Shown here: positions 1,687 to 26,830 of the stretch, piece after piece | How the letters are laid out: the number at the start of each line of letters is the position of its first letter | Position numbering within the stretch: position 1 is the first letter of the stretch | Origin: Psychrobacter sp. P11F6 | Lineage (GTDB): Bacteria; Pseudomonadota; Gammaproteobacteria; Pseudomonadales; Moraxellaceae | Length of the DNA stretch: 64,000 bases | Direction: 5' to 3' | Assembly: GCF_001435295.1 (NCBI RefSeq) | Contig: NZ_CM003594.1 | Location: 3,306,574-3,370,573, forward strand | Made by a program: the position numbers and the translations under genes | Notes under the pieces: generated by a model | What the model was told of the DNA's origin: nothing | The model's input: only the letters and a program-made list of their open reading frames with translations | Database searches by the model: none

Positions 1687-2502
1687 ATGCTTTCAAAAAA
1701 ACAAGAAAAGTGGCTTAAAGAAGGTAGAGGTCAGGGGGAGTTTGCCGAGTACAAACCTTGGATAAAAATATCTGATATATCGTCGTCAGGTCGCTCCCAT
1801 AGGGTTTTCGGTCACAAAACAAGACGTACTCACCATTTAATGTCTGATTTAGAGCTAGCAACATTTCTATTTCTTGAATGGAGTCAAGAAATAATAGATA
1901 TTCGAGAGCAATTTCCTCTTAAATTTGATGAAACCCTTCAGATTGCAGAGAATATGCAAGTAAAGCATCCTGCTATTAGAGGCAATACTCATGTTATGAC
2001 ATCAGACTTTTATGTTGTGAGCTCTGATAAAGAGCTTAGCCAATTTGTTTTGCAGGCAAAATATTCAAAAGATCTAATGAAGCCCAGAACTCTAGAGAAA
2101 CTAGAGATAGAGCGTCGATACTGGCACTCTAAAGGCATTTCGTGGCAGATAATCACTGAAAAAGACATACCTATAGCCGTTCAAAATAACATTAAATGGC
2201 TATATCCAGAAACTACTCTAAATAGGTCAGTTGATACTCAAGACAGTCTGAATTTTTACGCTAAGGAATTTACCAAATATCCTGAAAAAAGCATTATCGC
2301 TGTGTGCAAAGATATTGATACTGCATATTTCAGTGAGGTAGGCGGTTCGCTTAATGAGTTGAGAACGCTATTAGGGCTGAGGTTCTTCACATTCGACCTT
2401 CGCATAGACTTCAGAAAGCTAAAGTGTAGCGACATTCAAATAAGTAACTCTCATTATTGGGACTTGATGACTGAGGAGCTTGGATATGTTGCGAATCAAT
2501 GA
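1687..2502 (+). CDS. tnsA: Tn7 transposase subunit TnsA (5'-end nuclease)
   Basis: TnsA cuts the 5' strands at the transposon ends and, with TnsB, allows cut-and-paste transposition. The 271 residues align by eye along the whole of E. coli TnsA (273 aa), for example KEGRGQG, SSGRSHR and DIREQFPL. The restriction-enzyme-like catalytic residues are present: E56 (SDLEL), D107 (TSDF), K125 (LQAK), with E142 in LEIERRYW. The ATG follows a hairpin that holds the AGGGG ribosome site. The 3' end overlaps tnsB by 17 nt. The gene looks intact. Confidence 0.96.
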   Translation: MLSKKQEKWLKEGRGQGEFAEYKPWIKISDISSSGRSHRVFGHKTRRTHHLMSDLELATFLFLEWSQEIIDIREQFPLKFDETLQIAENMQVKHPAIRGNTHVMTSDFYVVSSDKELSQFVLQAKYSKDLMKPRTLEKLEIERRYWHSKGISWQIITEKDIPIAVQNNIKWLYPETTLNRSVDTQDSLNFYAKEFTKYPEKSIIAVCKDIDTAYFSEVGGSLNELRTLLGLRFFTFDLRIDFRKLKCSDIQISNSHYWDLMTEELGYVANQ

Positions 2503-4585
2503 TGTCTATAGTAATCAAGGTTCAACGTATAGAATACTAAGCCTTTTACCAGAGCAAGTTGTTTGGATTGAGATTGATCGTACATCCGCATTGCCTGAAC
2601 TTGTACTTATTAAGGATCTAGTAAGTCTGATTGAAGAGGGTGTGTGTTATATCACTGACGACCCTCATCAGAGTTTACTGTTACAAACTCCAAAAGATGG
2701 CAGTAAAGCTCAGTTAAAACGAGATGAGAGTTATGAGCTTATTAAGCCTATTGTAAGTCACCCTTTATATTACCTTCCAGAGGAACGTGCAAAGTTCATT
2801 AATGAGATTGTTGACTCTAAAAGAAGTACAAAGCAAACGCTATATCGGTTACTTCGTAGATATTGGCAAAAAGGCCAAGTACCTAATGCTCTACTTCCGA
2901 ACTATAAGAATTCTGGAGCGAAAGGAAAAAAGCGTATTGCTAAAGATAAAGAGCTAGGTAGGCCTAGGCTCTATAAGGAAGGGGTTACTGCCGTTATTAA
3001 TGAAGATGTAGAAAGGCTCTTCTCAATTACTATAAATAAGTACTTATTAAACGATAGCAAGCATACAGTCGTCTATGCTTACCGAAAATTTAAAACAATG
3101 TATCGCTCTTTAAATCCAGATGTTAAAGAAGAGGACTTTCCTAGTATCTGGCAATTTAAATACTTTTATGACAAGAACTTTACTTCCGTTCAAAAACTCA
3201 AAGCCAGATATAATAAAATCAGTTATAGCAAAGATGTGAGACAGTTAAGCTCGACTGTTAACACTCAAGTTCTTGGTCCTGGTTCACGCTATGAGATCGA
3301 CGCTACTATTGCAGATATTTATCTAGTATCTGATTCAGATAGGCAGAGTATTGTAGGTCGTCCAGTTATTTACTTCGTTACAGATGTGTTTAGCCGCATG
3401 GTAGCAGGTTTTTATATTGGATTTGAAGACCCTTCCTATGCCACGAGTATTCAAGCCTTAGAGATGGCAGTAGCGGATAAACAAAGTTACTGTAAAAATA
3501 ATGGTATTAATATCACAGCTGACGATTGGCCATGTATAGGCTTGCCAGATGCAATTCTCGCAGATCGTGGAGAATTACTAGGTCATCAAATTGAGACCTT
3601 GGAAAAAAGCTTTTCAGTTCGAGTAGAGAATACCCCTCCTTATCGTGGCGACTTAAAGCCTATTGTGGAGCGTTACTTTAAAACCATGCAGGCAAAGTTC
3701 AAACCATTTGCGCCAGGAGTAGTCACAGGGGTTAAAGAGAAGAAAAAAGGTGGCAACGACTACCGATTAGATGCTGCTTTGACAATTTCAGATTTAAAAA
3801 AAATTCTTATTAATTCAATTTTGATGCATAACAATGCTCATCAATTAAGTCACTATGATAGAGATAGTGATATGCCATCTGACTTACCTCTAGTTCCTAT
3901 TGAATTATGGAAGTGGGGGTTACAACATCGAACAGGTAGGCTTCGTGCTGTCTCAGCGGATGCTTTATACATAGCGCTATTACCTCAAAAAAAAGCCAGC
4001 ATTTCAGATTTAGGTATCAAGCTCTTTGGTAATTACTATATTTGTGCTGAAATAAGAGAAAAAGGCTGGCTTCATCGGAAAAACACAATCAATAGACCTA
4101 AATCGATTAAAGTTGCTTACGATCCTTTAGATGCAAATACAATTTTTATCTTTTATGAACAAGGTAGCCTCAATTATTGGAAAGCCCATTTATCCGATAG
4201 ATCAAGAGAGTTTAAGGGCTGTAGTTTTTGGGAGGTGTGGCAAATACAAGAAGAGCAGAAAAAAACAGCTGCCAATCAAGAGCTTAAAAGTAGTTTCGCA
4301 TTAGAAACCCTTGAACGAGAAAATGAAAAAATCATAAAAGAAGCTATGAAGGCTAAACCAACGGCATTTAAAAGCAAGTCAGCTCAGTTAGCTAATATCA
4401 ATGATAACAAAAGGTTAGCTAAAGATGAGGAGCGACAGGACAGGCAGAAAAGCAAGTTTAAAAAAGGTGAGTTAATTCAACTGCCTACGACCAAAAAAAG
4501 CACGAGAAGTCAAAGTGAACTGGATGATGAAGAGCTAGCGCTTAAGTTCCCAGTTTATCATGATATTTTATCTGAAGATGACTGA
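2486..4585 (+). CDS. tnsB: Tn7 transposase subunit TnsB (DDE recombinase)
   Basis: TnsB binds the repeats at both transposon ends, cuts the 3' strands and joins them to target DNA. The start chosen is ATG 2486, with GAGGAG 7 nt upstream, rather than TTG 2480. The product is 699 residues, close to E. coli TnsB (702). The rve/DDE core carries D272 (RYEIDATIADIYL), D360 (LADRGELL) and E395 (PIVERYFK). An N-terminal helix-turn-helix region (TLYRLLRRYWQKG) and a basic, charged C-terminal tail, which in Tn7 contacts TnsC, are visible. It is coupled to tnsA by overlap. Confidence 0.96.
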   Translation: MLRINDVYSNQGSTYRILSLLPEQVVWIEIDRTSALPELVLIKDLVSLIEEGVCYITDDPHQSLLLQTPKDGSKAQLKRDESYELIKPIVSHPLYYLPEERAKFINEIVDSKRSTKQTLYRLLRRYWQKGQVPNALLPNYKNSGAKGKKRIAKDKELGRPRLYKEGVTAVINEDVERLFSITINKYLLNDSKHTVVYAYRKFKTMYRSLNPDVKEEDFPSIWQFKYFYDKNFTSVQKLKARYNKISYSKDVRQLSSTVNTQVLGPGSRYEIDATIADIYLVSDSDRQSIVGRPVIYFVTDVFSRMVAGFYIGFEDPSYATSIQALEMAVADKQSYCKNNGINITADDWPCIGLPDAILADRGELLGHQIETLEKSFSVRVENTPPYRGDLKPIVERYFKTMQAKFKPFAPGVVTGVKEKKKGGNDYRLDAALTISDLKKILINSILMHNNAHQLSHYDRDSDMPSDLPLVPIELWKWGLQHRTGRLRAVSADALYIALLPQKKASISDLGIKLFGNYYICAEIREKGWLHRKNTINRPKSIKVAYDPLDANTIFIFYEQGSLNYWKAHLSDRSREFKGCSFWEVWQIQEEQKKTAANQELKSSFALETLERENEKIIKEAMKAKPTAFKSKSAQLANINDNKRLAKDEERQDRQKSKFKKGELIQLPTTKKSTRSQSELDDEELALKFPVYHDILSEDD

Positions 4586-4607
4586 TTACAGAATGTTGGA
4601 GACAGTA

Positions 4608-6281
4608 ATGATTAATGCAGTTTATAAAGAAAGCTTTGGTTCTTACAAAGGGAACCCCTTTATTGAGGCACTGCCTGACATTCTAGAACCAGAACAAGTG
4701 GTCAAAAAACTTAAAGGTAGTATAAAGCTCAATCATTCTGACTGTCAGGCTTCCTCTTCTATTAGAGCACATTTGATATCTCAAATGATGGGTTTGTTTT
4801 TTCAGCCTATCAACCGTCATATTGATCTTGAGAAGAAGTTATCAATAATGATTCGTGAAGGGTATGTTGGACGCAATCCTAAAGACGGCTCTTTAAATAC
4901 TCATCTTCAAAATGGCTATGAGCGTTTAATGTCTGGTGAGGACGATGTGATTAGGTTTCCTACAGCGACTTCTACAGCACGTAGCTTGGCATTTATAGGC
5001 TGCTCAGGTAGTGGTAAAACGACTACCCTTAATAAAATTCTATCGACCTACCCTCAAGTCATTTATCATTCAGACTTGAACTTTACTCAAATTGTCTACC
5101 TAAGAGTAGATTGTCCACATGATGGTTCACTTAAAAGCCTATGTCTTCATTTTTTTAGAGCAATCGACCAAGCTTTAGACTCTAATTATGAAAAAAAGTA
5201 TGCGCTAAAACGACATAGTATTGAAACTTTATTGAATTTGATGCGTCAGATATCTAATCATCATGCTATCGGACTGTTAGTAATAGACGAAATACAGCAT
5301 CTCAGTGTTAATAAATCTGGCGGTGCTGAGAAAATGTTAAATTTTTTTGTGACGCTAGTAAATACGGTAGGTCTTCCTGTCGTTATGGTTGGAACACCAA
5401 AAGCTAGATTTATATTTGAAGGAGACCTAAGATCAGCTCGACGTGGAGCAGGTTTTGGCTCAATTTTTTGGGAGCAGATGGCACAAGAACCAAATATAGT
5501 TTTAGCAGATGGTAAAATATACAAATCTGAATGGAACAGGTTTACGGATAATTTGTGGAAGTATCAATGGTTGAAAAAAGCAGATATTATCTTGTCTGAT
5601 GATGTAAGAAATCGTTGGTATGATCTATCACAAGGCATTTTAGATATCGTAGTTAAGCTTTTTGTACTAGCTCAACTCAGAGCCATAGATTCAGGGATAG
5701 AGCGTATTACGGTTAAACTACTGCAGACCACTTATGATGAAGATCTAAGACCCATCCATCCTATGATAGAAGCCTTACAATCTGGTAGATCAGATAAAAT
5801 TGCCGAGTTTTCAGATCTAGTAGTACCCGACATTGATAAAAAGCTATTGCAGCTTCAAAGTAAGCTACATCAAAAGAAGTCTGAGTTCGATGAGGTATCA
5901 GAATATCAGGGGTGCGAACTAAGCATTAGATTACATCGTATGTTAGTCGATATGGGGAAAGACTCCCCTGTACTAGTTCCTACAGTTAAAAAGGCAGTTT
6001 CTGAGCTACCTGAAGCCTCTATGCCCGAGTTGATGTCTATTATTTTAGAATGGTCGAAAGAGGTTAAAGTTGGAAACAGCAATTTAAAAGATGACTCTCA
6101 AACGATTAATCGTACAAAGAAATCGAATTATATCAAACCAAAGGATTGGCATACGCTTGATTCTGAAGATTTACGTTATCAGTTCACTCAAAAGGAAAAA
6201 GATAATTCATTTTATGAGCACTTAAAAGATTCTACATCGCTAATATTTGATATTAACGACTGGCTACCTAAGGTGAGTTAG
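4608..6281 (+). CDS. tnsC: Tn7 transposition regulator TnsC (AAA+ ATPase)
   Basis: TnsC polymerises on target DNA with ATP and links the target selectors TnsD or TnsE to TnsAB. The start chosen is ATG 4608 (GGAG 6 nt upstream, and MINAVYKESFG aligns with the E. coli N-terminus); in-frame ATGs at 4560 and 4578 would overlap tnsB. This gives 557 aa against 555 in E. coli. Walker A GCSGSGKT is at 131-138 and Walker B LLVIDE at 223-228, followed by GTPKAR and the Arg-rich DLRSARRGAGFG. Only one base separates it from tnsD. Confidence 0.95.
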   Translation: MINAVYKESFGSYKGNPFIEALPDILEPEQVVKKLKGSIKLNHSDCQASSSIRAHLISQMMGLFFQPINRHIDLEKKLSIMIREGYVGRNPKDGSLNTHLQNGYERLMSGEDDVIRFPTATSTARSLAFIGCSGSGKTTTLNKILSTYPQVIYHSDLNFTQIVYLRVDCPHDGSLKSLCLHFFRAIDQALDSNYEKKYALKRHSIETLLNLMRQISNHHAIGLLVIDEIQHLSVNKSGGAEKMLNFFVTLVNTVGLPVVMVGTPKARFIFEGDLRSARRGAGFGSIFWEQMAQEPNIVLADGKIYKSEWNRFTDNLWKYQWLKKADIILSDDVRNRWYDLSQGILDIVVKLFVLAQLRAIDSGIERITVKLLQTTYDEDLRPIHPMIEALQSGRSDKIAEFSDLVVPDIDKKLLQLQSKLHQKKSEFDEVSEYQGCELSIRLHRMLVDMGKDSPVLVPTVKKAVSELPEASMPELMSIILEWSKEVKVGNSNLKDDSQTINRTKKSNYIKPKDWHTLDSEDLRYQFTQKEKDNSFYEHLKDSTSLIFDINDWLPKVS

Positions 6282-6282
6282 T

Positions 6283-7830
6283 ATGATTAATCTTCCTATG
6301 CCATACCCTCAAGAATTGATCTATAGCACAGTTGCTAGGTATAAGATTCGAGCTGGATTGATTAGTCCAAAGCAGTTATTAAATGATGTTTTTGAAGATA
6401 GAGGAGTAGTTGCAACTGTTGATTTGCCATGCCATTTATCTAAAATAGCGAATCACTATCCTCATAACCGTTTTAATCTGAATTATATTGCATACCAGCA
6501 TACGCTTTTTCCTTTGTATGCTCCTTTTATCCCTGAGTCTAGGCGACAAGAATGTTTGAGATGGATGGCTAATTATTCGCAAGGCGCTATTCACTTAGCA
6601 ATAGGGAGTAATGCATCAAGACTGCCCTCAGTAAAATATATCCGTTACTGCCCACAATGTTTTAATGAGCAGTTTAAAGATTATGGTGAATGGTATTGGT
6701 CACGTATGTGGCAAATTCCAGGCATAACTTGTTGTAGCAAGCATGGATCATTAGCGGATTCTTCAGTTGAATATCGTCCTAACTCCCGTCATGATTTTAT
6801 TGCCCCTACTCCACATAACTGTAATATAAATCCACAAGGAAGTATCAATGAAGATAATAGGTTCCTCATTTCTAAAATATCTGAGCTTTTATCCTTAGCT
6901 GAACAATCTTCTCCGACTTTTGAGCAGTGGACTGCTTTTTATCACGGTTTAGCTCGATCTAGTAACTGTATAAGAGGGTCTAAACATATCGATCATCTTC
7001 GTATACTAGAAAAGGTGGAAAACAGATGGTCATTAGAGTTTTTGGAAACGAACAATCTTCATAGACTTAACAGTGAAACAGGTTGGCTTCGCGGTATTTT
7101 TCGTAAACATCGTAAATCGTTCAGTTATCTTGAACATATTATCGCTATTAGTTCATTATTGAAGCAAGAATGGACTTTTGAAGAAATAATAATGCAGGTG
7201 AAAAGCCAGAAAACTACCCTATCTGGTAAAATTACAAAAGCGAAAAATACCATAAAGCCTGATAGTGAATTGGTAAAGTCAAATCGAAACCTATGGTTAG
7301 ACTTGATTAAAGAAAACCAGTCTATCAAAGGTGCTAGAAAAGTTAATAAAGCTCTTTATGCATGGCTATATCGTAACGATAAGACATGGTTTATGAATAC
7401 AAACAAAAACTACCATCAACGTCACATACCTAAAGGATTCACTGTAGATTGGCAAAAGCGAGATAGCGAGTTTGTGAGGTCTTTGATCAAAATAAACGAT
7501 CACACATGTTTCGACTTAACATTACCTCGTAAATCAAAAAAGTGGTGGATGAATCAAACTGATTCAGTCTCAATGATTGAGAAGAATCAAGATAAGCTAC
7601 CTTTAGTCTCAGCATTTTTGGACAGATATAGTGAAGACGTTAGTAACTATCAAATAAGACGGTTAAGCCAGGTATTAATTGATAGTATATCGAACAATCA
7701 AACTTTACAGCGCTGGGAGATATTACGACTGGCTAAATTGAGTGATGAGCGAATTACTCCTGAGTCTAGTAGGTTTCTAGAGCATGCATACAGTATTACA
7801 AATATGCGAATAAACAAGGTGAGTATATGA
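6283..7830 (+). CDS. tnsD: Tn7 target-site selector TnsD (TniQ family)
   Basis: TnsD binds the end of glmS and recruits TnsC for insertion at attTn7. The 515 residues match E. coli TnsD (508) from MINLPMPYPQELIYST to the C-terminus, so this is a full-length TnsD and not the short TniQ of CRISPR-associated transposons. The CCCH zinc site is intact: C123 and C126 (RYCPQC), C151 and H154 (CSKHG). The stop codon overlaps the tnsE start (ATGA). Its presence agrees with the observed insertion 25 nt past glmS. Confidence 0.95.
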   Translation: MINLPMPYPQELIYSTVARYKIRAGLISPKQLLNDVFEDRGVVATVDLPCHLSKIANHYPHNRFNLNYIAYQHTLFPLYAPFIPESRRQECLRWMANYSQGAIHLAIGSNASRLPSVKYIRYCPQCFNEQFKDYGEWYWSRMWQIPGITCCSKHGSLADSSVEYRPNSRHDFIAPTPHNCNINPQGSINEDNRFLISKISELLSLAEQSSPTFEQWTAFYHGLARSSNCIRGSKHIDHLRILEKVENRWSLEFLETNNLHRLNSETGWLRGIFRKHRKSFSYLEHIIAISSLLKQEWTFEEIIMQVKSQKTTLSGKITKAKNTIKPDSELVKSNRNLWLDLIKENQSIKGARKVNKALYAWLYRNDKTWFMNTNKNYHQRHIPKGFTVDWQKRDSEFVRSLIKINDHTCFDLTLPRKSKKWWMNQTDSVSMIEKNQDKLPLVSAFLDRYSEDVSNYQIRRLSQVLIDSISNNQTLQRWEILRLAKLSDERITPESSRFLEHAYSITNMRINKVSI

Positions 7831-9395
7831 TCGCTAAAGGTTTCCCTGAAGACTCGAAAATAATGTACGTTGCTAATATTTTCAAGTTTAAACACTTGAA
7901 GACATGGAATCTTGAGCTATACGTAACAAGCACTAGCCAAAATCAAATATTACATACTAGACTATCAAATCTACCAGCTCTCGCGAAAAGAAGAGTCATA
8001 AACCCTTCAGATGGGCAGTCTCGTAAAGGTGGCTACCCATTTGTTTTGAGTAATGTCTCTACTGCTAATTGGCAAGTAGGCATTGATTCAGAAAGCGGCG
8101 GTAATACCTTTGTGTTTGACTATATCAGACCAGATGAGTCAACAGTAACGGTCCATATACCTCAGATTGAGTTTGCACGAGTGTTATTTTTTCATAATGC
8201 CTATCTTGCTCGAAACTGTATTGATCACGGATTACTCAGTAGAGAGTTTTGGATTCAAGACATGCCAGATGATTCAGTATTGGTAAATGTTTTGCCTATA
8301 AGCTCTCTACCTTTAAAAACTTTTGATCACGAAGGACAGAGACGCTTACTGGCTTGGATACTAATAGATGAAAATGCGCGTTCTTCCTATGAAAGTATTG
8401 CCAAAAATTTTATTGAAGAAGTTCAGGAAACTGAAGACAAGAAAACATGGTGCTTTAAATTTAGTCCGCCACGGCTTGATAATCTCTCACTAGACACTAG
8501 AGGTTGGATGCACAAGGATACTGGCAATTACTATGTTCATGAAATTATAGGGATCAGTAATATTCTCTCCTCTTTGCCCAAAAAAGTGCCATTTTATAGT
8601 GAGAAATTCAAAGCTGGTACGAGAGGCGGCGGTACAAGTAACGTAGCTAAGCCAAATGGTTCAGTAAGTAGTGATACTATTGATGATCAGCAAGAAGCAG
8701 ATATTGACACTAAACCGAAAACGATAGAGGTGCCAACAACTTCCTTTAGCTTTGCAACTCCAATAGAAACTCGAAAAGTTGTCAAAAAAAGAGTTCCAGG
8801 CGCACAAGGAGCAGAGACTGAAGATTATGAAGAGTTAGTAGAACTAGATCTTGCTACAGATGAGGCCACGATTGACGGCACAGCATGCCAAGCGGACTTC
8901 TCTGGGCTTGATGATGACAGCGATGTTTTAGAACTGTATATGCAACGATTTGAAGCCTTTAAGCTACTAATCAAGAGGCTATCAGAACGACCTAAGACTG
9001 ACTGTACTGAAAAACTACATTTTTTACCTGCTGTTGGGCGCTCTAGGCTACATAGAACGATGGACGGCAATAGACGGTCTTTACTTGAAGTAAGAGTCAA
9101 AACTGACACTTCTCAGTTCGTCATTTTAGAGATAGATACTACTGACAACTCTAAGCCAATATCGACCTTAATAATAAAAATCAATGATTTAGATTACTGG
9201 GACGATCATATGGATGAGTTTCTGAGCTTAGTTGTTAAGAGATCACTGCGTTGGCCTAAGGCCAGTTATTTAAAAAAATTTGACGATGTGTACACCTTGA
9301 ACCATCCTAAAAGTATGCTCGAACTTACTGAAAGTAGTGACGATTTTATACGATGGCAAAAGCGATTGGATACAGTTCTAGGTTTGGCTGAATGA
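7827..9395 (+). CDS. tnsE: Tn7 target selector TnsE (conjugative plasmid / replication targeting)
   Basis: TnsE directs Tn7 to discontinuously replicating DNA, especially conjugating plasmids, through the sliding clamp. The 522 residues align with E. coli TnsE (538) at several points: HIPQIEFARVLFF, SSYESI, WCFKFSPP, LPAVGRSRLH and the C-terminal NHPKSMLEL. The middle, about 265-340, is acidic and low in complexity, as in the E. coli protein. ATG 7827 overlaps the tnsD stop. It is the last tns gene, convergent with the first cargo gene. Confidence 0.93.
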   Translation: MIAKGFPEDSKIMYVANIFKFKHLKTWNLELYVTSTSQNQILHTRLSNLPALAKRRVINPSDGQSRKGGYPFVLSNVSTANWQVGIDSESGGNTFVFDYIRPDESTVTVHIPQIEFARVLFFHNAYLARNCIDHGLLSREFWIQDMPDDSVLVNVLPISSLPLKTFDHEGQRRLLAWILIDENARSSYESIAKNFIEEVQETEDKKTWCFKFSPPRLDNLSLDTRGWMHKDTGNYYVHEIIGISNILSSLPKKVPFYSEKFKAGTRGGGTSNVAKPNGSVSSDTIDDQQEADIDTKPKTIEVPTTSFSFATPIETRKVVKKRVPGAQGAETEDYEELVELDLATDEATIDGTACQADFSGLDDDSDVLELYMQRFEAFKLLIKRLSERPKTDCTEKLHFLPAVGRSRLHRTMDGNRRSLLEVRVKTDTSQFVILEIDTTDNSKPISTLIIKINDLDYWDDHMDEFLSLVVKRSLRWPKASYLKKFDDVYTLNHPKSMLELTESSDDFIRWQKRLDTVLGLAE

Positions 9396-17458: not shown

Positions 17459-17479
17459 AGTCGGTATTATGAGGTGAGT

Positions 17480-18763
17480 ATGAAAACAAAACTAGAGTAT
17501 CAGCCAGGTATTACAGAGCTTAATAAGCTTGTCTGTGAGAAGTACTGGTTACGTGAGAGCGATAAACGAAGTGGCTATATATATACTTGTAAAGAGATAG
17601 GTCAGGAGTTTGGCCTTAAACATCAAGACATACCCAGTATTGTTAAAGCAAATGCTCATCTTGTTGTACTAGACTGCCAATGCATAGAATGTAGTAAAAC
17701 TAAGGTTTGCTATACTCGTTCACAGCTGACTCAATTAAAACCTGATAGTTGGCGTTGTGACAGTTGTTGGAAAGTGCTTCAAGAAAGAAGAGAACAAGAG
17801 TATCTAGAGTATCGGCTTGAACAAAAGCGTTTAGAAGAAGAACGAAAACAAGCGGCTCTCCAGTATATTAATGATTACAGAGGTACTCAATTAACTGAGG
17901 TCCCGCCAATAACTGAGCTTAATGAAGTAGATAAGCTTTTACTTGCTACAACGATAGAAAGCTTAGGCGCAGAAAATCTAAAAACTACGATCTCTCTGCG
18001 CGATAATATATCACTATTTTTATCACCGTTCTTTGGATTAGATGAAAAAATACTTCACCATCTTTTCAAGCTAAATCTGCTTTTATTGGCTCCTGAAGAG
18101 AGCTATGAATATATTAGTGTTAATAAAGAGCAAGAATTAGAGATTGATTATTATCAGGCAACTTTTGAGTTTGCTTATGACACTAATGACCTGACTAAGA
18201 TAATAGTAGATGCTAAATCCAAAAAGAATACTAGTGCTTTAGTCAGCAATACTCAGTTTGAGATGTGGTGTCAGCAAATACAGCTAGGAGAGTGCCTAAG
18301 CTACTTGATTACTAGGGCAAAACTAAACAACTTGGCACCGCCTATTGGTGAAAAGCTCATTAGCTTACTTAGAGCTTGTTTAGCTGAATGTTCTGTATCT
18401 GTTATGCACTATATAATCTATAAAGCGGTTGAAAGTGCTGCTGCCTTCGTGCAAAAACCGAATATTACTAGAAAGCATGCATCAAACTCTATTTCAGGTA
18501 ATATCGAACGGGTTTTCAGTAAGATATCTAGTGGTAGTTGGTATCCTAACAAGTCTTATCGTGACGCTAGTCACCCCCAGTCTGCTATGGCAAAAGTATT
18601 TTTTGATTACGTGTTTGGAATAGAGGATTGTGGTTTTCATTACACTCTCGATGAGCTGTTTAACCCTTACAAACCGCAGCAGGCTATTGGACAAGTGGGT
18701 TATGCCACTCTAGGAAGCGCTCAAAGTACTAACTACTCAATCACAATCAATGATTTGAATTAG
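17480..18763 (+). CDS. Unrecognised zinc-ribbon protein under Xre control
   Basis: I do not recognise this 427-residue protein. An N-terminal region of about 60 residues (YTCKEIGQEFGL) may be a small helix-turn-helix. It is followed by a zinc ribbon, C68-x2-C71 ... C93-x2-C96 with C66 and C77 nearby, then a charged coiled coil (100-125, QERREQEYLEYRLEQKRLEE). The rest is mixed helical with no known motif. ATG 17480 has GAGGTGAG just upstream. It sits between SIR2-HerA and the SMC-type operon, divergent from an Xre regulator, and ends at a strong terminator. A role in defence is guilt by association; a regulatory or toxin role is equally open. Confidence 0.7.
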   Translation: MKTKLEYQPGITELNKLVCEKYWLRESDKRSGYIYTCKEIGQEFGLKHQDIPSIVKANAHLVVLDCQCIECSKTKVCYTRSQLTQLKPDSWRCDSCWKVLQERREQEYLEYRLEQKRLEEERKQAALQYINDYRGTQLTEVPPITELNEVDKLLLATTIESLGAENLKTTISLRDNISLFLSPFFGLDEKILHHLFKLNLLLLAPEESYEYISVNKEQELEIDYYQATFEFAYDTNDLTKIIVDAKSKKNTSALVSNTQFEMWCQQIQLGECLSYLITRAKLNNLAPPIGEKLISLLRACLAECSVSVMHYIIYKAVESAAAFVQKPNITRKHASNSISGNIERVFSKISSGSWYPNKSYRDASHPQSAMAKVFFDYVFGIEDCGFHYTLDELFNPYKPQQAIGQVGYATLGSAQSTNYSITINDLN

Positions 18764-19043: not shown

Positions 19044-22000
19044 ATGCTGAAAACGGATGAAGCCTTAAGCATAGCAAACGAAGACAATACGAAACCAGTT
19101 ATAAAAGATATCAATAAGCTTCTACGTGTCGCATTAATCAACAGTTACCCTAAAGGTCAAAGCCACCTTATTGAAGTTGGTGATAACACAATCATTACGG
19201 GGCGCAATAGCGCAGGCAAAACTACCCTGATGGGAGCAGTCATTCCTTTTTTTGGCACTAGATTGAGTGAGGTTTCTAAAAAGAATGAAGCGGTTAAAAG
19301 CTTTATTGACTTTTATCTTCCTTATGATGACAGTTACTTGGTTTATGAATACAGAAGACAGGGCGAAAAAAAATGTGTGATCCTGAGGCGGAGCAGTGAG
19401 GGGCAACAAATTTTCAACTTTATCAATGCTGGATACAATGAAACCTGGTTTGTCACAAAAGATGCTACCAATCAGCGAAGATTTAGGCAGTTTGAAGAAG
19501 TTAAAGGCATAATCGAATATCAAGGTTTTAACGTCTCAAATAATATCAAGCAGCTGGCTTACGAGGCTATCATATCTAATTGTCCTAATAGACGCTTAAA
19601 AGCCTCTATTCGTTCATCTAAAGCTCTACAAACTATCAATGCGCTTCGTCCTGATTACTCACTGGCTGTCGGTAGAGGTAGCTTCTACGGGTTTTCCTTA
19701 ATCGCTAGCAATATTCTAAAAAGTAAAATTGAGTTTGATCAAATATGTGAGTTTTTGGTTGAAGCAATGAAGACAGAAAATAAAGTTCAGAATAATGAGA
19801 TTTCTATAGATTCTCAAGGGGTTGATACCAATAAGTGGCTTTCAGATCGCAATTCATGGAATGAGGTTGAGCAACTTAGAAGTAAGTTTAACGAACTAGG
19901 CCAGTATGTTGAGCAAAATGCCTCTAATCAAAACGCCCTATCGATAATAGTTAAAACGCTCAGAGGCTTAGTCAAAGCCTTTGATACAAAGATTGCAGAA
20001 AATAAAACCATTGAAGATGATCTCAAATTAAAAGTTGAAGCCCTAGAGCAAGCAATTACCAAGATTAAAATTGCTTGGGATAAAGAAAAAGGCCAGTTGC
20101 AGAATGAAATTGATGATCTGAGCTCTAAGATATTGAAGCTTGAAAGAGCGAAACGAGATTTTGAAGAGGGTGTACCTGGACATCATCAACCATTGGCCAT
20201 ATTACAAAATATGATTAGAGAGGTCTCGTCACTTGAAGAACAAATAAAGCACGAGAATGAGCTACTCAAAGCTCTACGCAAAAACGAGGAAGATGCCACT
20301 AAAGTCATTGAAAACATTAAAGAGCAACTTGCTAAAGACTTGAAGCAAATAGAGTCTAAAAAAAATGGTTTAGTTTCTCAACAAGCGTTAATGCTACAGC
20401 AGATTAAAACAGGTTACTACGAGTCTCTTTCAAACCTAGGTGATGATAAGGCTGCTAAGCTTAACCTTATTAAAAAAGAGTACGAAATCAAGTCTAGTGC
20501 CATCAAGGAAAAACATACCCAGCTTATTATCGATAAGAATAACCTGGAATCAGAATTAAAAAATGTTAAATGTAGCCTCGAGCTTGCCAAGGAAATGGAG
20601 AGCTTAAAGATAAATTTAGACAATGCTAAAACTCAACTTAATCAGGACATAAAAAATCAAAGAACAGCTGAAAAATATCTAGATGAGGCCAGTAAGGAAT
20701 ATGAAAAACTACAAAGAGAGCATGAACGCTTATTAAACGATATCTCTGATAAGACCTCTGATATTGATGACCTCTATGATTTACTCAAAGATGACACATT
20801 ACTCAGTTTCCTATTGAGAAATGAAGCCGATGAAGTGCTTTCGCCTTTGATAAATCAGATACGAAAAAGTATCGACCCATCCCTATTCAACCGCTCTGAC
20901 CTATCACCACAGTGGCTTGCACCTAAAGAATTAGACATCGAGACTCTGTATGGGCTGTATCTTGATACATCAAAAATAGACACTACTAATAATCCTAAAA
21001 AACTACTTACCCTTGAAAGTATTACTGAGCAAAGACTTGTGTTAGAGGATGAGATATTAGAACGTAGAACTAATATCTCATCGCTCGAAAAAACAATTCA
21101 TCAAGCCAAGCTTACTAAGAAAAAAGCCAATGAAGATGTCTATAAGGCAAATACCAATGTGGTTAACACTGAAAAAGATATCGAAAATAAACAAGCGACG
21201 CAAAAACAGCTAGAAATAAGAGCTGAAAACGAAATTGAAGAAGCTAAGAGTAGGATTGAGAACCAATTAAACGAAATTAAAAATAAAATTAATGACCAAA
21301 TATCAGCTTCCGAAACTGTTGATACCAAAATAAACATCTCTGAGCAGAAGATAGTAAGCCGTCACAAATTGGCTATTGAACAACTGGAAGAAGATAAGAA
21401 AAAAAGAGAACAGGCGGTAAAGCAACAATATGTTGAAGAACTTGAAGGCTTGAAACTTGAAGCTGATCAGTCTCAAGAGCGTCATGATAGGGCTATTGAT
21501 GAAAATGGCTACGATGATAACGTTATAGCCCAAACTATAGCCAAAGTGCAGCAACTATCCACAAAGTTAGATGTTGCTGAAAAAGCCAAAATACGCGTTA
21601 AGCACTATTACGAGTTTATTGATGAAGAATATCGAGATTTACCTATACTGTTTGAAAAACGCAATGGTCTATCAATTAAGCTAGTGGATAAACAAGCGGC
21701 TTCTGATAAAGCTCTGATATCTAAGCAGGAGGATGCCAAATCCCTTGCCGAGAGAGCCAAGGATATTAATGGTCGAATTGATAGAGCACAAATCGATCTA
21801 ATAAGCATCAAAGAAAGTCTAGGTAATGCCGGTAACGCTTTTGATAAAGCTTTGGTTGTGGATCATACCTTGCAGCCTGAATATACGGAAAATTCTTTGC
21901 AAGACTTGCATAATGCAAGCTTAGCAGTCTTGAACGATGCCAAATCTTTGGTTCGCGACACTAAAAAGAATATGGAAAAAGGTATTTATGCACTAAAGGC

Positions 22001-22934
22001 CATAAGAAAGCCCTTTACCGCCAATGGGTCTATGTTTGAGAGCTTAATGTCTGACAGTATCTTACTCAGTATACCTGATCAGGAAAACTGGTACATACAA
22101 GCTAAAAAGTTTAGCGACTACTTGCACAATGAGCATGAAATTAAAAAAGATACACTCATTGGCCAGTATCGAGTCACCGCTCACCAAGTTAGAGAATTTA
22201 AATCAAAGCTAGATGATGCTCATAATAGCTTGAGTAATTTTTCGAAGCGTATTAATACCAAATGCAAAGAGGTTTGTGAAAAACTAGAAGCTTTAGCCAT
22301 TGAGGAGCTTCATATAGCTATAAGTTCGGGAATCAAAGAAAACAAATGGTATTCCACCTTGGCTGACTTCACTGATGCATATCAAAGATGGGCTAATGAG
22401 GACATCCATGACACAACGCGTATGCCTAATCAGGAACTGCTTTCCAAATTACAACTCGTGCAAGACTATATTGGTCAAAACCAGATGAATATCAAACTGT
22501 CAGAGCAATTTAGTTTCAGTCTAAGAATCAAACAGGTCGGCGGTGAAATCAAGGAAACCAAAAGAGCAAAGGTATTTAAAGATATGGGGTCAAACGGCAC
22601 CATGCGTATTGCTCAGCTAATCATTTATATCTCTTTGCTCTCAGTTATATCAACTACATCGAGCGATGAGGTCGAGCTGAAATTCTTTATTGATGAAATT
22701 GGCGTGTTAGATCCGCAAAATACTCGTGAGTTATTAAACTTGCTACAAAAACTTGGTATATCAGCAATGTGCGCCGCTCCTGAGAATCCAGATGACGAGG
22801 TTGTCCCATTATTCGCTAATAATATTGCCTGCCATCACAATAAAACCAGAAATATGTACTCAATCTCTCAAACGGATGATATGTATATGTTGACTCAGGA
22901 TTCAGAACTTGAGGAATTTGGAGTGTTTTCCTAA
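19044..22934 (+). CDS. jetC: SMC-like ATPase, JetC/MksB/MukB type (Wadjet-like)
   Basis: A 1296-residue SMC-family protein. Walker A GRNSAGKT is at 53-60, with NSYPKGQ and LIEVGDNT before it as in MukB/MksB-like heads. Long charged coiled coils fill about 300-1130. Near the C-terminus are a signature-like SNGTMRIAQL and Walker B FFIDEIGVLD (D1217-E1218). It would be the loop-extruding motor of a Wadjet/MksBEFG-like complex that destroys plasmids. It is long for the family. It has a good ribosome site (AAAGGA) and its own upstream region, and it overlaps the next gene by one base (TAATG). Confidence 0.85.
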   Translation: MLKTDEALSIANEDNTKPVIKDINKLLRVALINSYPKGQSHLIEVGDNTIITGRNSAGKTTLMGAVIPFFGTRLSEVSKKNEAVKSFIDFYLPYDDSYLVYEYRRQGEKKCVILRRSSEGQQIFNFINAGYNETWFVTKDATNQRRFRQFEEVKGIIEYQGFNVSNNIKQLAYEAIISNCPNRRLKASIRSSKALQTINALRPDYSLAVGRGSFYGFSLIASNILKSKIEFDQICEFLVEAMKTENKVQNNEISIDSQGVDTNKWLSDRNSWNEVEQLRSKFNELGQYVEQNASNQNALSIIVKTLRGLVKAFDTKIAENKTIEDDLKLKVEALEQAITKIKIAWDKEKGQLQNEIDDLSSKILKLERAKRDFEEGVPGHHQPLAILQNMIREVSSLEEQIKHENELLKALRKNEEDATKVIENIKEQLAKDLKQIESKKNGLVSQQALMLQQIKTGYYESLSNLGDDKAAKLNLIKKEYEIKSSAIKEKHTQLIIDKNNLESELKNVKCSLELAKEMESLKINLDNAKTQLNQDIKNQRTAEKYLDEASKEYEKLQREHERLLNDISDKTSDIDDLYDLLKDDTLLSFLLRNEADEVLSPLINQIRKSIDPSLFNRSDLSPQWLAPKELDIETLYGLYLDTSKIDTTNNPKKLLTLESITEQRLVLEDEILERRTNISSLEKTIHQAKLTKKKANEDVYKANTNVVNTEKDIENKQATQKQLEIRAENEIEEAKSRIENQLNEIKNKINDQISASETVDTKINISEQKIVSRHKLAIEQLEEDKKKREQAVKQQYVEELEGLKLEADQSQERHDRAIDENGYDDNVIAQTIAKVQQLSTKLDVAEKAKIRVKHYYEFIDEEYRDLPILFEKRNGLSIKLVDKQAASDKALISKQEDAKSLAERAKDINGRIDRAQIDLISIKESLGNAGNAFDKALVVDHTLQPEYTENSLQDLHNASLAVLNDAKSLVRDTKKNMEKGIYALKAIRKPFTANGSMFESLMSDSILLSIPDQENWYIQAKKFSDYLHNEHEIKKDTLIGQYRVTAHQVREFKSKLDDAHNSLSNFSKRINTKCKEVCEKLEALAIEELHIAISSGIKENKWYSTLADFTDAYQRWANEDIHDTTRMPNQELLSKLQLVQDYIGQNQMNIKLSEQFSFSLRIKQVGGEIKETKRAKVFKDMGSNGTMRIAQLIIYISLLSVISTTSSDEVELKFFIDEIGVLDPQNTRELLNLLQKLGISAMCAAPENPDDEVVPLFANNIACHHNKTRNMYSISQTDDMYMLTQDSELEEFGVFS

Positions 22935-23554
22935 TGAAAGAGTATGAAATACTAAGATTGTTAATGAACAATAAATTTATATGCTCTGTGAGTTATCCAG
23001 AGGCGTATAGGCATCTAAGAGATAACAAAGTAGCCTATGATCGTATGGTGTCTCAGCTACAACCATTTGGGGTCAGTCTAGTCACCCTCAGTGATGGGGA
23101 GGTTTATGCTGGTTTAAACAATATACCTAGTGACTCTGATAGAAGAGCAGTGGTTAAACAGTTTAATGAAATTTATCATGACATAGCACCTATAGTAGAA
23201 ATGATTGCTTGCCTATCAACAGCCGATGAAGGCAATGTATTGACTGTTGGTGAAAATCTATGCCAAACAGAGCTGGTTTTAGAAGCAAATAATAACAAGC
23301 ATTTTGCAAGTATGCTAAACGAGGTTTCTGAGATCACAGGCGCTTCTAAAAAACCCAATGACGAAAAGGTAGCTGCTCTTTTAGAAAGACTCCAGAAGCA
23401 CGAAATACTGAAGTTGGTTGAGCCCAATAAAAAGATTTATCGAGCAACAGGAAAAATCGGCTATATATATGATGTATTTGATTATATTGCTGAAAACATA
23501 TTAGATGAGCCCACTGAAGAGATCTTTGCTGAGCAGCAAGGGCTTAAGTTATGA
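22934..23554 (+). CDS. jetB: Kite-type subunit, JetB/MksE-like
   Basis: A 206-residue protein that by size, position and winged-helix-like pattern (ALLERLQKHEILKLV followed by IYRATGKIGYIYD) fits the MukE/MksE/JetB subunit, which binds the kleisin and DNA. The start overlaps the SMC stop (TAATG) and the stop overlaps the next start (ATGA), so the genes are translated together. Similarity to characterised JetB is not evident residue by residue; the assignment leans on operon context. Confidence 0.7.
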   Translation: MKEYEILRLLMNNKFICSVSYPEAYRHLRDNKVAYDRMVSQLQPFGVSLVTLSDGEVYAGLNNIPSDSDRRAVVKQFNEIYHDIAPIVEMIACLSTADEGNVLTVGENLCQTELVLEANNNKHFASMLNEVSEITGASKKPNDEKVAALLERLQKHEILKLVEPNKKIYRATGKIGYIYDVFDYIAENILDEPTEEIFAEQQGLKL

Positions 23555-24858
23555 GTAAAGTCAGCCTCAGGTTATCGGAAGAAACAATCAGAACACTTGG
23601 TAGAGCTGTAACTGATAAAGCTGATTTGATTTATCAAGCCTACTCTCCTAATGGCTGTTATGAGTTGGTCAACGATAAACATAAACAGTATCAGATATTA
23701 CAAGACAGTGGTGTTATCAGTATCAATCCTAATAACATTACCCTAGGCTCAAACTTTACAGCAATCTTAAAGAGTCTGGATAGAAAGTCTCGTAATGCAA
23801 ATATTGCTCCCGATATTGAACTGTCTAAACATCAGATAAGTAATGAGGTTGCCCTAGCGCAAATACAGTCAGATTCGTTTGAAGATGAAAGTGAAGAGAT
23901 GATGCATTTGGCTAATATACGAGATATCTGCATCTCCATCGCTGAATATCTTGGACGTGAGATGGCTGATATTGAGTATGTTATCAACTCTGATCTAAAC
24001 AACACATCAAACGTTAAGGTAAAAAGACAGATTCTTGAAGGTTTAAATAAAAAGATCAAACTCCAGCTCGAAAAAATAGAGATATTAAGTCGCGATGAAC
24101 TCCGTAAACTACACGGCGAGTATACGCCAGCGGCAGCTATACTGAATGAGTATTTGGCGGATTCTATTTCTAGATTTAATATTGAAATGGGAGTCCACTT
24201 ACAAAAAATACTGATATTAATTGATAAGTTAAAAAAAGAGCAAGATAAAAAAAGCAAGAGGCTTTGGCTATTACGCAAGGCTTTAAGAAACAATCAACTT
24301 GCTCCTGAAAAGATAGATATTGAATATAACGATATTGTAGATAAAGGCTTAGCTTTTGGTGGTATGGCTTTGGCTGGCACTTTGCACAATATTGAAACTG
24401 TAGATGACAGCGAATTTCTTTTCTCGGTGGTAAGTAAAATTAGCAACAAAAATCCTAAACGCAAGAGTGATAATTTATATAAAGGTGAGTATGAGGAGTT
24501 TGACCGAGAACATAAGAAACCACCACCCTCCCCTGAAAAATTGCTTGTTATGCAGTATATGGCAGATAATTGCGACATGCCTTTTACTAAGGCCTTATCT
24601 GTCAGGGAGTACTGGGATTTGTCAGGTTTGAAGCGCAAGATACGCTACAAAGCCTTTTTAGCCTTGTTCTTAAAAGTAGCAAAGAGTGATTTTATCAACG
24701 ACAGGATCATTAAATCTAAAGGTCAATTTAACTATAAAGTTTATTTAAAATCACTAAACCTTTCTGATACTTGCGACACACGCTATGTCATCGATGCTAA
24801 ATATATAAAGTTTAATAGAAACGAAGAGTCGCCATCAAAGGACCAGATATGGAAGTAG
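23551..24858 (+). CDS. jetA: Kleisin-like subunit, JetA/MksF-like
   Basis: A 435-residue, mainly helical protein between the kite-like and Toprim genes. Its size and place fit the kleisin MukF/MksF/JetA, which bridges the SMC heads. A central helical segment (about 160-250, rich in K/E/L) would be the SMC-neck-binding part. No catalytic motif is visible. Function is inferred from context: no other gene in the operon could be the kleisin. The last 10 bases overlap the Toprim gene. A distant or new kleisin family is possible. Confidence 0.62.
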   Translation: MSKVSLRLSEETIRTLGRAVTDKADLIYQAYSPNGCYELVNDKHKQYQILQDSGVISINPNNITLGSNFTAILKSLDRKSRNANIAPDIELSKHQISNEVALAQIQSDSFEDESEEMMHLANIRDICISIAEYLGREMADIEYVINSDLNNTSNVKVKRQILEGLNKKIKLQLEKIEILSRDELRKLHGEYTPAAAILNEYLADSISRFNIEMGVHLQKILILIDKLKKEQDKKSKRLWLLRKALRNNQLAPEKIDIEYNDIVDKGLAFGGMALAGTLHNIETVDDSEFLFSVVSKISNKNPKRKSDNLYKGEYEEFDREHKKPPPSPEKLLVMQYMADNCDMPFTKALSVREYWDLSGLKRKIRYKAFLALFLKVAKSDFINDRIIKSKGQFNYKVYLKSLNLSDTCDTRYVIDAKYIKFNRNEESPSKDQIWK

Positions 24859-25760
24859 ACCTAGAAAAATCCTTAAATACAGCGGGTAAACTTGATTACT
24901 TGAAGGAGAAGATGATACTGGGGGTGAAATTCGCTACCTATCGAAGCCCTGACAATATCCTTGTATTATTGGTGTCTTTTGACCCCAGTATTGGCTACAC
25001 AGAAAATGGAAAAGTGATCATTAATATGGGTGGCTGGGGCCGTATTAGAGAGATCGTAAAAGCTCAAACAGGGATAGACCTACTCAGACACAATTTAAAT
25101 GAGCTAAAAAGTAAAGACCGTGTAGATAACACAGCTATCACAACTAACGATAAATTATTAAGTAAAGCACCTACCAAAGGCTTTCTTGAGTGTCGTCTAC
25201 TAGGTAGTGAAGAACATATTATTAAGGTATCAAACAACTACACGCATAAGCAAACTCAAGAGAATGCCTATTTAGGTGTGGAAATTAACGACCTCATTGA
25301 TTGGAATATCGATAACATTATAATCATAGAGAATTTTAATGCATTTTGTAGATTTAATGAGCAGCATGCCAAGCTAGTAGAAGGGTTGACTGGCGCAGTA
25401 ACTGTGCTTGCCTATCGAGGTCATAACAATAAAAATATAACTTCTATATTGAAAGCTTTAGCTCAAAAAGACTGTAAACGCTATATCTTTGCTGACTATG
25501 ACTTGGCTGGTCTGAAAATAGCTGAATCGATGTCAAAAACCCTCAAAGCTCACGGATATATACTACCCAACAAACCTTGGATGCAGACTGAAAAATATAT
25601 TGAAATGACGATTAAAGAAAATCGTAAGAAGCAGTCATCTATTAAGATAAGCTTACCTAGCTTAACCCCCTACTTTGAACATATCCGTGACAAGTATTTA
25701 GCAGTACCACAAGAGACTCTTATAGCGAGAAGAACTCAACTGAAGGTCATTGATATTTGA
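24849..25760 (+). CDS. jetD: Toprim-domain nuclease, JetD/MksG-like (short form)
   Basis: A 303-residue protein with a Toprim core: IIIIENFNAF with E161, then IFADYDLAGLKI with D216 and D218, the metal-binding E...DxD of Toprim nucleases. In Wadjet, JetD is the nuclease that cuts the extruded plasmid; typical JetD proteins are nearer 380-400 residues with a longer N-terminal arm, so this one is short. It overlaps the kleisin gene by 10 nt and ends the operon. The nuclease role is inferred from the Toprim residues and neighbours. Confidence 0.75.
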   Translation: MEVDLEKSLNTAGKLDYLKEKMILGVKFATYRSPDNILVLLVSFDPSIGYTENGKVIINMGGWGRIREIVKAQTGIDLLRHNLNELKSKDRVDNTAITTNDKLLSKAPTKGFLECRLLGSEEHIIKVSNNYTHKQTQENAYLGVEINDLIDWNIDNIIIIENFNAFCRFNEQHAKLVEGLTGAVTVLAYRGHNNKNITSILKALAQKDCKRYIFADYDLAGLKIAESMSKTLKAHGYILPNKPWMQTEKYIEMTIKENRKKQSSIKISLPSLTPYFEHIRDKYLAVPQETLIARRTQLKVIDI

Positions 25761-25865
25761 GCTGATTCATATGAATATGTAGGGCTCATTGTGTCCACTG
25801 AGGTCTAAATTAGCCCTTGTATAATACTTAATTTTCGCATTCAACTAATAATATATAAGGTGGGT

Positions 25866-26567
25866 ATGATGCTAGAAGTTGATTTTTTTAAGCAAAGTGG
25901 TGTTTACTTCCGAATAATTGGTAACTACTTTCTACTAGGGGATGGGACGAATGGTCACATTAGAGATCTAAAAGAATCAGTAGAAGAGCTTTGCGAAGCA
26001 GTTTATTTTATAACTGAAATAGACTGGGCACCTATAGATAAATACTTAGAGGACAACAAAAAAAGTTACGGAAAGTTTGAAGAATGGAATAAAACAGCAT
26101 CCGAGCTACCTGAGGATGATTGGAGCGCTTTACATTGGGCATCACTATTAATTGAACAGCAAAAGGGGATGGTTGAGCTGTCTAAATCCTCAAGAACTGA
26201 AGTTCGTCAAATGGTAGCTCATGCTGGTTATTGCTTAAGTTATCTCGCTAATGATAAAGATGATAGCGTACGTAGAGAGGTAGCTGAACAAGGTTATAAT
26301 TTATCAGGCTTTATAAAAGATCGCTCTTATTATGTTAGAGAAGCTGTTGCTGAGCAGGGTTATGGTCTAGATGTATTATATAAAGACAAAATAACTGCTG
26401 TTAGAGTAGCTGTAGCAAGGCAAGGGTATAGGCTAGATGTAATGATCGAAGATAAGTCGCCTTATGTTAGAGCGGAAGTAGCTAAGCAGGGATATGGAAT
26501 TGATAAGTTATCGAATGATAATAGTAAAATTGTTCAACGAGCAATTAAAGAATATGAGATGAATTAA
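25866..26567 (+). CDS. Protein of five 22-residue HEAT/LRV-like repeats
   Basis: A 233-residue protein. From about residue 118 it carries five tandem repeats of exactly 22 residues, each starting A-x-x-G-Y-x-L and ending in D-x-x-x-x-V-R-x-x-V (AHAGY, AEQGY, AEQGY, ARQGY, AKQGY). This suits a small alpha-solenoid like variant leucine-rich or HEAT repeats, which bind proteins. The N-terminal 115 residues are acidic and unrecognised. ATG 25866 or 25869 may be the start (AAGGTGGG just upstream). It lies 105 nt after the SMC operon and 110 nt before the first TnsB-type site. Its function is unknown. Confidence 0.75.
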   Translation: MMLEVDFFKQSGVYFRIIGNYFLLGDGTNGHIRDLKESVEELCEAVYFITEIDWAPIDKYLEDNKKSYGKFEEWNKTASELPEDDWSALHWASLLIEQQKGMVELSKSSRTEVRQMVAHAGYCLSYLANDKDDSVRREVAEQGYNLSGFIKDRSYYVREAVAEQGYGLDVLYKDKITAVRVAVARQGYRLDVMIEDKSPYVRAEVAKQGYGIDKLSNDNSKIVQRAIKEYEMN

Positions 26568-26825: not shown

Positions 26826-26830
26826 ATCAA
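26826..26830. repeat. Target site duplication, distal copy
   Basis: ATCAA directly follows the left terminus and equals the copy at 1559-1563. Confidence 0.9.

Follow-up and report, generated by a model that had tools for sequence, protein, structure and literature searches.

The stretch of DNA analysed here, referred to as the window, comprises 64,000 nucleotides from Psychrobacter sp. P11F6, and the system under study is a plus-strand operon at 19044-25760 that contains the genes of an SMC ATPase, a kite protein, a kleisin-like protein and a Toprim nuclease (labels beginning with L and G denote the loci and genomes examined). Both the gene order and the protein alignments are conserved across loci, hence we consider the four open reading frames (ORFs) to be real genes. 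The coordinates and protein lengths reported by an initial annotation were confirmed for all four. The features discussed below are as follows.

19044-25760, plus strand: operon of four genes (SMC, kite, kleisin-like, Toprim nuclease) with overlapping ORFs
19044-22934, plus strand: SMC ATPase, 1296 amino acids (aa), C position (Pfam DUF3584, PF12128; family profile)
19200-19223, plus strand: Walker A motif GRNSAGKT, residues 53-60 of the SMC (alignment)
22692-22697, plus strand: Walker B pair D1217-E1218 of the SMC (invariant in 20 SMCs)
22934-23554, plus strand: kite protein, 206 aa, B position (Pfam MksE; hhalign match to the kite-position protein of L045)
23534-23551, plus strand: C-terminal QQGLKL of the kite, a hallmark of the family that looks like a motif for binding the sliding clamp
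23551-24858, plus strand: kleisin-like protein, 435 aa, A position (predicted layout, weak fold matches)
24849-25760, plus strand: Toprim nuclease, 303 aa, D position (Pfam DUF7281; fold matches)
25329-25331, plus strand: catalytic E161 of the Toprim protein (invariant in 18 sequences)
25494-25502, plus strand: D216-x-D218 of the Toprim protein (invariant in 18 sequences)

None of the four proteins has an NCBIfam match above cut-off. Across the aligned family members, identity to the window proteins falls as low as 11-17%. DUF3584 spans residues 31-1260 of the SMC protein (323.7 bits). The ATPase motifs lie where they had been placed initially: in an alignment of 20 diverse SMCs, residues G53, N55, G58, K59, D1217 and E1218 are invariant and T60 is nearly so. 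On the other hand, the SMC is not unusually long as had been thought, since lengths in its own family range from about 1210 to 1380 aa, and Wadjet II JetC and MukB have 1392 and 1486 aa, respectively. Compared with solved structures, the window SMC sequence found no SMC-complex relative, and the SMC family profile found only coiled-coil entries (including the arms of SMC3 and SMC6) and P-loop entries.

The 303-aa protein matches DUF7281 (71.3 bits) and DUF2399 (24.4 bits, cut-off 23.4), and its predicted fold is matched best by MksG, JetD, Topo VI-A and Spo11. The three acidic residues singled out earlier, E161, D216 and D218, are invariant among 18 diverse Toprims. The claim that the nuclease lacks the usual long N-terminal arm also holds, i.e. 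the DUF3322 part of JetD is absent and the protein is considerably shorter than the 426-aa JetD of the Wadjet I control (L110). The Toprim domain is preceded only by a short N-terminal domain, which is probably CAP-like. Searches of solved structures with the window Toprim sequence and with the Toprim family profile found no JetD relative. Close homologues of this protein in Psychrobacter are 96-97% identical.

The kite and the kleisin had been recognised only by size and place. This is no longer the case for the kite, as the 206-aa protein scores just above the Pfam MksE cut-off (27.3 bits, cut-off 27); among other kites, MksE is above cut-off in L041, L055 and L113 and below it in L040 and L046. 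The 435-aa protein can now be described by its predicted layout, which consists of an N-terminal winged-helix-like part, a helical middle, a disordered linker and a C-terminal winged-helix-like part, while the fold match remains weak: MukF (top) and JetABC structures are the best folds, with weak statistics. The protein has no Pfam match, and we weakly favour a kleisin-like protein with a predicted MukF-like fold. Neither the kite nor the kleisin-like family profile found an SMC-complex relative among solved structures. In many public records the kleisin-like proteins of Alteromonadaceae (the one at 4062-5279 of L093 and related proteins including P0040) are called phosphoenolpyruvate carboxylase, which is very likely a propagated annotation error.

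The operon belongs to a family. Hidden Markov models (HMMs) of the SMC, kite, kleisin and Toprim proteins were built from six loci, and these seed loci are among the rows scored. The order SMC-kite-kleisin-Toprim was found in 25 rows out of 42 inputs, corresponding to 24 distinct loci if the window is counted and the duplicate of L004, L056, is not; the remaining inputs are two partial loci (L049, L050), seven loci without Toprim and eight other contexts. These eight, L042-L045, L052-L054 and L057, were left out of the family count; PF23947 also picks up Toprims in other contexts. The window, with a DUF3584 SMC, a kite, a kleisin-like protein and a DUF7281 Toprim in that order, fits the family definition. 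A rearrangement specific to one locus can be ruled out as the source of the order because 24 distinct loci share it.

The same order is found on plasmids of gamma- and betaproteobacteria, namely in 9 out of 10 plasmid records examined, which were drawn from 26 records that the SMC matched and one more that came up via the kleisin. The hosts are Marinobacter, Enterobacter, Acinetobacter, Rhodoferax, Vibrio (three plasmids) and two Rhodocyclales. Seven of the nine operons were confirmed by the HMMs; L112 and L116 carry split genes. In L112, an IncC plasmid of Enterobacter hormaechei, the SMC gene is interrupted by an ISSod4 insertion. In the records fetched, the genes of the plasmid copies go under the names ATP-binding protein or hypothetical protein. 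The tenth plasmid, Persicobacter pPP3 (L125, Bacteroidota), has kleisin-, kite- and SMC-sized genes arranged A-B-C, with no gene of nuclease size following on the same strand. Searches of the plasmid collection with the window Toprim and of the phage collection with the window kleisin gave no match; more divergent plasmid relatives surface via the SMC and the L041 kleisin.

It is instructive to compare these features with those of known SMC systems. The Wadjet I control (L110) has proteins of 497, 287, 1148 and 426 aa in the order A-B-C-D, scoring 841, 343, 1505 and 527 bits with the PADLOC profiles. The Wadjet II control (L122), supplied by a JetC2 search that gave a match in 1 of 259 genomes, has proteins of 519, 438, 1392 and 447 aa in the same order, scoring 676, 471, 1486 and 448 bits. 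Compared with both controls and with MukFEB, the first three genes of the window operon are reversed, as initially stated. Like the window operon, in which the kleisin is assigned by predicted layout and a weak fold match, Wadjet I (JetABCD, also MksBEFG or EptABCD) combines SMC, kite, kleisin and Toprim nuclease genes, the Toprim fold and the catalytic residues are common to both, and by analogy the plasmid-restriction logic may be shared as well. Unlike the window, Wadjet I contains DUF3375, DUF4194 and DUF3322. Wadjet II resembles the window in its four-gene content and long SMC, and JetD2 is the top Wadjet match of the window Toprim; it differs in order, in the size of its kleisin and kite, which PADLOC labels DUF2397 and DUF2398, and in having full PADLOC matches. 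As for MukBEF, structures of MukF give the best fold match of the kleisin-like protein, with weak statistics, and MukE is the second-best match of the kite profile, albeit a weak one (probability 5%), whereas the order F-E-B, the longer SMC and the lack of a nuclease set it apart; the window operon differs from MukBEF and nuclease-free MksBEF in possessing the Toprim gene. Lamassu and other SMC-like defence systems also have a coiled-coil ABC ATPase, but the LmuB match is just 6.3 bits and the window has kite and kleisin-like genes.

When the family profiles were compared with 15 control proteins by hhalign, the nearest system was L045 (413, 185, 936 and 277 aa), where the SMC head matched with a probability of 97%, the Toprim with 93%, the kite with 88% and the kleisin with 3%. 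Like the window family, L045 has no full Wadjet match in PADLOC. However, its first three genes are in the opposite order (A-B-C-D, A being assigned by size) and its SMC is shorter by about 300 aa or more, which means that gene order and SMC length vary between related systems. L042, L043, L045 and L052 are related loci in which SMCs of 917-974 aa lie near DUF7281-type Toprims. The Toprim precedes the SMC in L052. L043 (SMC and Toprim) gave no full PADLOC match, as was the case for all four proteins of L045. L109 (genome G385, Psychrobacter) is Wadjet I-like by layout, and its JetD reading frame appears to be split.

Taken together, the gene content, catalytic residues, predicted folds, defence setting and patchy distribution favour restriction, and we think that the operon is probably a Wadjet-like DNA-restriction machine whose family is absent from the PADLOC 2.0.0 models. 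Following the published mechanism of Wadjet I, the SMC-kite-kleisin core would dimerise and load on DNA, extrude it using ATP and recognise invaders, which are probably small circular plasmids; the Toprim protein would then cut both strands. PADLOC 2.0.0 misses the family in spite of its occurrence across proteobacteria and on plasmids. What is new is the family, its gene order and the existence of forms with and without a nuclease; there is no new principle.

A possible, if not the more probable, reading is that the operon has simply diverged within Wadjet type III or the published 'Wadjet group' and does not differ from them in kind. PADLOC labels JetC1, JetC2 and JetC3 as DUF3584, the JetD3 profiles are 345-437 positions long, and several members of the 'Wadjet group' are without MksG according to PMC7617805, a 2025 survey that may already include the clade of the window operon. 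Against this, the JetA, JetB, JetC2 and JetC3 profiles match no window protein at E values up to 1. The sole JetC match is JetC1 (4e-4, best at the P-loop), and the JetD matches are JetD2 (2e-6), JetD1 (2.5e-5) and JetD3 (0.007). No window protein scores above 25.1 bits (JetD2) with any Wadjet profile, whereas genuine type I and type II operons score hundreds of bits. The window thus has no full-length match to JetA-JetD of any Wadjet type, the positive controls being types I and II only, and no full Wadjet match was found in L040, L041, L055 and L113. Searches for JetC3, JetD2 and JetD3 in 200, 200 and 299 genomes, respectively, found none, and they do not show absence because the controls were silent too. 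The suggestion of a new Wadjet type is a fair label but an unproven one, given that these searches supplied no type III gene whose order could be compared and that operon organisation is described as variable among the existing Wadjet types (PMC12647877). No paper was found on 'Wadjet type IV' or DUF7281, and the five titles found for DUF3584 concern no SMC systems, in a literature searched largely without subscription papers; the literature consulted also includes PMC10123090, PMC12287153, PMC8565338, PMC8649781 and PMC4255302.

One signature of the family is the C-terminal tail of the kite. The pattern Q-x-x-[LMIF]-(x)-[LFIMV] closes 38 of 44 unique kites. When the tails were shuffled 2000 times, 1.6 fitted the pattern on average and 7 at most, a contrast that overstates the surprise because the kites are related. 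From L058-L078 and L095, whose stretches stop before the nuclease, the tails alone were used. The tail is still kept in kites that are about 20% identical. Among 436 ORFs, 36 carry the C-terminal motif, and inspection by eye assigned 30 of these to family kites and 6 to other proteins. We hypothesise from the sequence pattern that the tail may be a clamp-binding element, and as such it offers one sharp hypothesis on how these complexes pick DNA. An extension of this idea is that the system acts against phages rather than plasmids, the tail drawing it to replicating DNA via the sliding clamp. The conserved tail, the clamp-motif consensus quoted in PMC13254535 and the neighbouring defence genes agree with this, yet we regard it as unlikely. 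Firstly, the quoted consensus requires an aliphatic residue at position 2, which in the kites is usually E, G or Q and aliphatic in few. Secondly, nuclease-free relatives have the tail too. Thirdly, the tail may be non-specific, since the JetB of L109 ends in QSDLFGE, which is near the sliding-clamp motif, and similar strings are found inside the tail of a MukE (L118); in E. coli MukE the motif was not found.

The distribution of the family is patchy. In Psychrobacter, DUF3584 is present in 13 and DUF7281 in 16 of 105 genomes, all 13 being among the 16, and in each of the 13 the two domains share a contig and lie no more than about 3 kb apart. In the class sample, DUF7281 occurs in 13 of 369 genomes (11 above cut-off), in some cases outside this operon context. 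In the phylum sample, DUF3584 occurs in 22 of 398 genomes at 1e-15, a threshold chosen because a limit of E up to 0.001 also lets through matches below cut-off from 4 of the 14 control genomes. We examined 18 of the 22 phylum loci, including the window (G740, G742, G800 and G827 are the other four): Toprim adjoins the kleisin in 11 and does not in 7. A broken Toprim hidden behind the Toprim-less operons is unsupported, as tblastn and a permissive profile found nothing convincing in the roughly 4 kb that follow.

A tree was built from 29 concatenated SMC-kite-kleisin rows, of which 22 come from loci with a Toprim and 7 from loci lacking one. It requires the Toprim state to change four times, and well-supported branches force no fewer than three of these changes. 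The root was placed by midpoint only, and the exact position of the window is unsure because long branches meet in its part of the tree. Toprim-bearing rows are widespread and the related L045 has a Toprim, so we infer losses rather than gains from this midpoint-rooted tree. Loss of the nuclease as such is not new, given the MksG-less members of the 'Wadjet group' mentioned above. One Toprim-less kleisin belongs to Salinimonas lutimaris, and 451 relatives of it were found; the 120 listed are 59-100% identical, and the named ones are mostly from Alteromonadaceae. It seems that the SMC core can serve without a nuclease, as in Alteromonadaceae. ScpA is present in 23 of 25 genomes checked; of the two without it, G705 has MukB above cut-off and G616 has neither. 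Two weak MukB matches are other SMCs, namely those of L110 (Wadjet I by PADLOC) and L109. ScpA is present in all 7 Toprim-less hosts, and MukB is matched in none of them, so a nuclease-free system there would be an extra condensin. That the window operon itself is chiefly a second, MksBEF-like chromosome condensin, with a Toprim that trims or resolves chromosomal DNA and with defence as a secondary role, is nevertheless quite improbable in spite of these nuclease-free relatives, since the operon is patchy in Psychrobacter, is accompanied by Toprim in all 13 genomes and is mobile and close to defence genes (see below).

We can only tentatively speculate about a wider scheme, which we consider doubtful: the family might be a fourth, so far uncatalogued branch of SMC restriction systems with inverted gene order, in which the kite tail would contact the clamp, replicating invaders would be hit, and the nuclease would have been lost repeatedly with the remainder kept as a condensin. 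If true, living bacteria would still display the transition that has been proposed from a defence system to a MukBEF-like condensin. An origin of chromosome-folding SMC complexes from plasmid-restriction systems is suggested in a review (PMC10586767), and the presence of nuclease-bearing and nuclease-free members in one family and one tree makes this suggestion testable.

The surroundings of the operon contain the following features.

1564-26825, no strand assigned: Tn7-like element with the operon as cargo (end repeats, target duplication, TnsA-E)
1687-9395, plus strand: tnsA, tnsB, tnsC, tnsD and tnsE (Pfam)
17474-18763, plus strand: 429-aa protein upstream of the SMC gene, which it precedes in the close clade

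The Tn7-like element is complete: its end repeats match, the 5-base target duplication ATCAA flanks it (1559-1563 and 26826-26830), and it sits 25 bases after an ORF that we take to be the end of glmS. Its other cargo consists of an AbiV-like HEPN protein, a restriction-modification pair, SIR2 and HerA. The minus-strand segment 9439-13125 encodes the AbiV-like HEPN protein (63.6 bits) together with a DNA methylase and a type I specificity-like protein; about 300 residues ahead of the methylase domain might be a fused nuclease, an arrangement that we presume to be BcgI-like. The IncC plasmid copy (L112) adjoins relatives of TnsB, TnsC and TnsD that are 27-29% identical to those of the window. 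Just past the Toprim gene, at 25860-26567, lies a HEAT-like repeat protein, not found in L004 and 87-92% identical in several close-clade loci. The 429-aa protein has no Pfam match and no relatives in L008 and L051; relatives that are 77-94% identical were found in close-clade loci only, where they lie upstream of the SMC gene. It contains cysteine pairs resembling a zinc ribbon, and it is possibly an accessory protein or a regulator.
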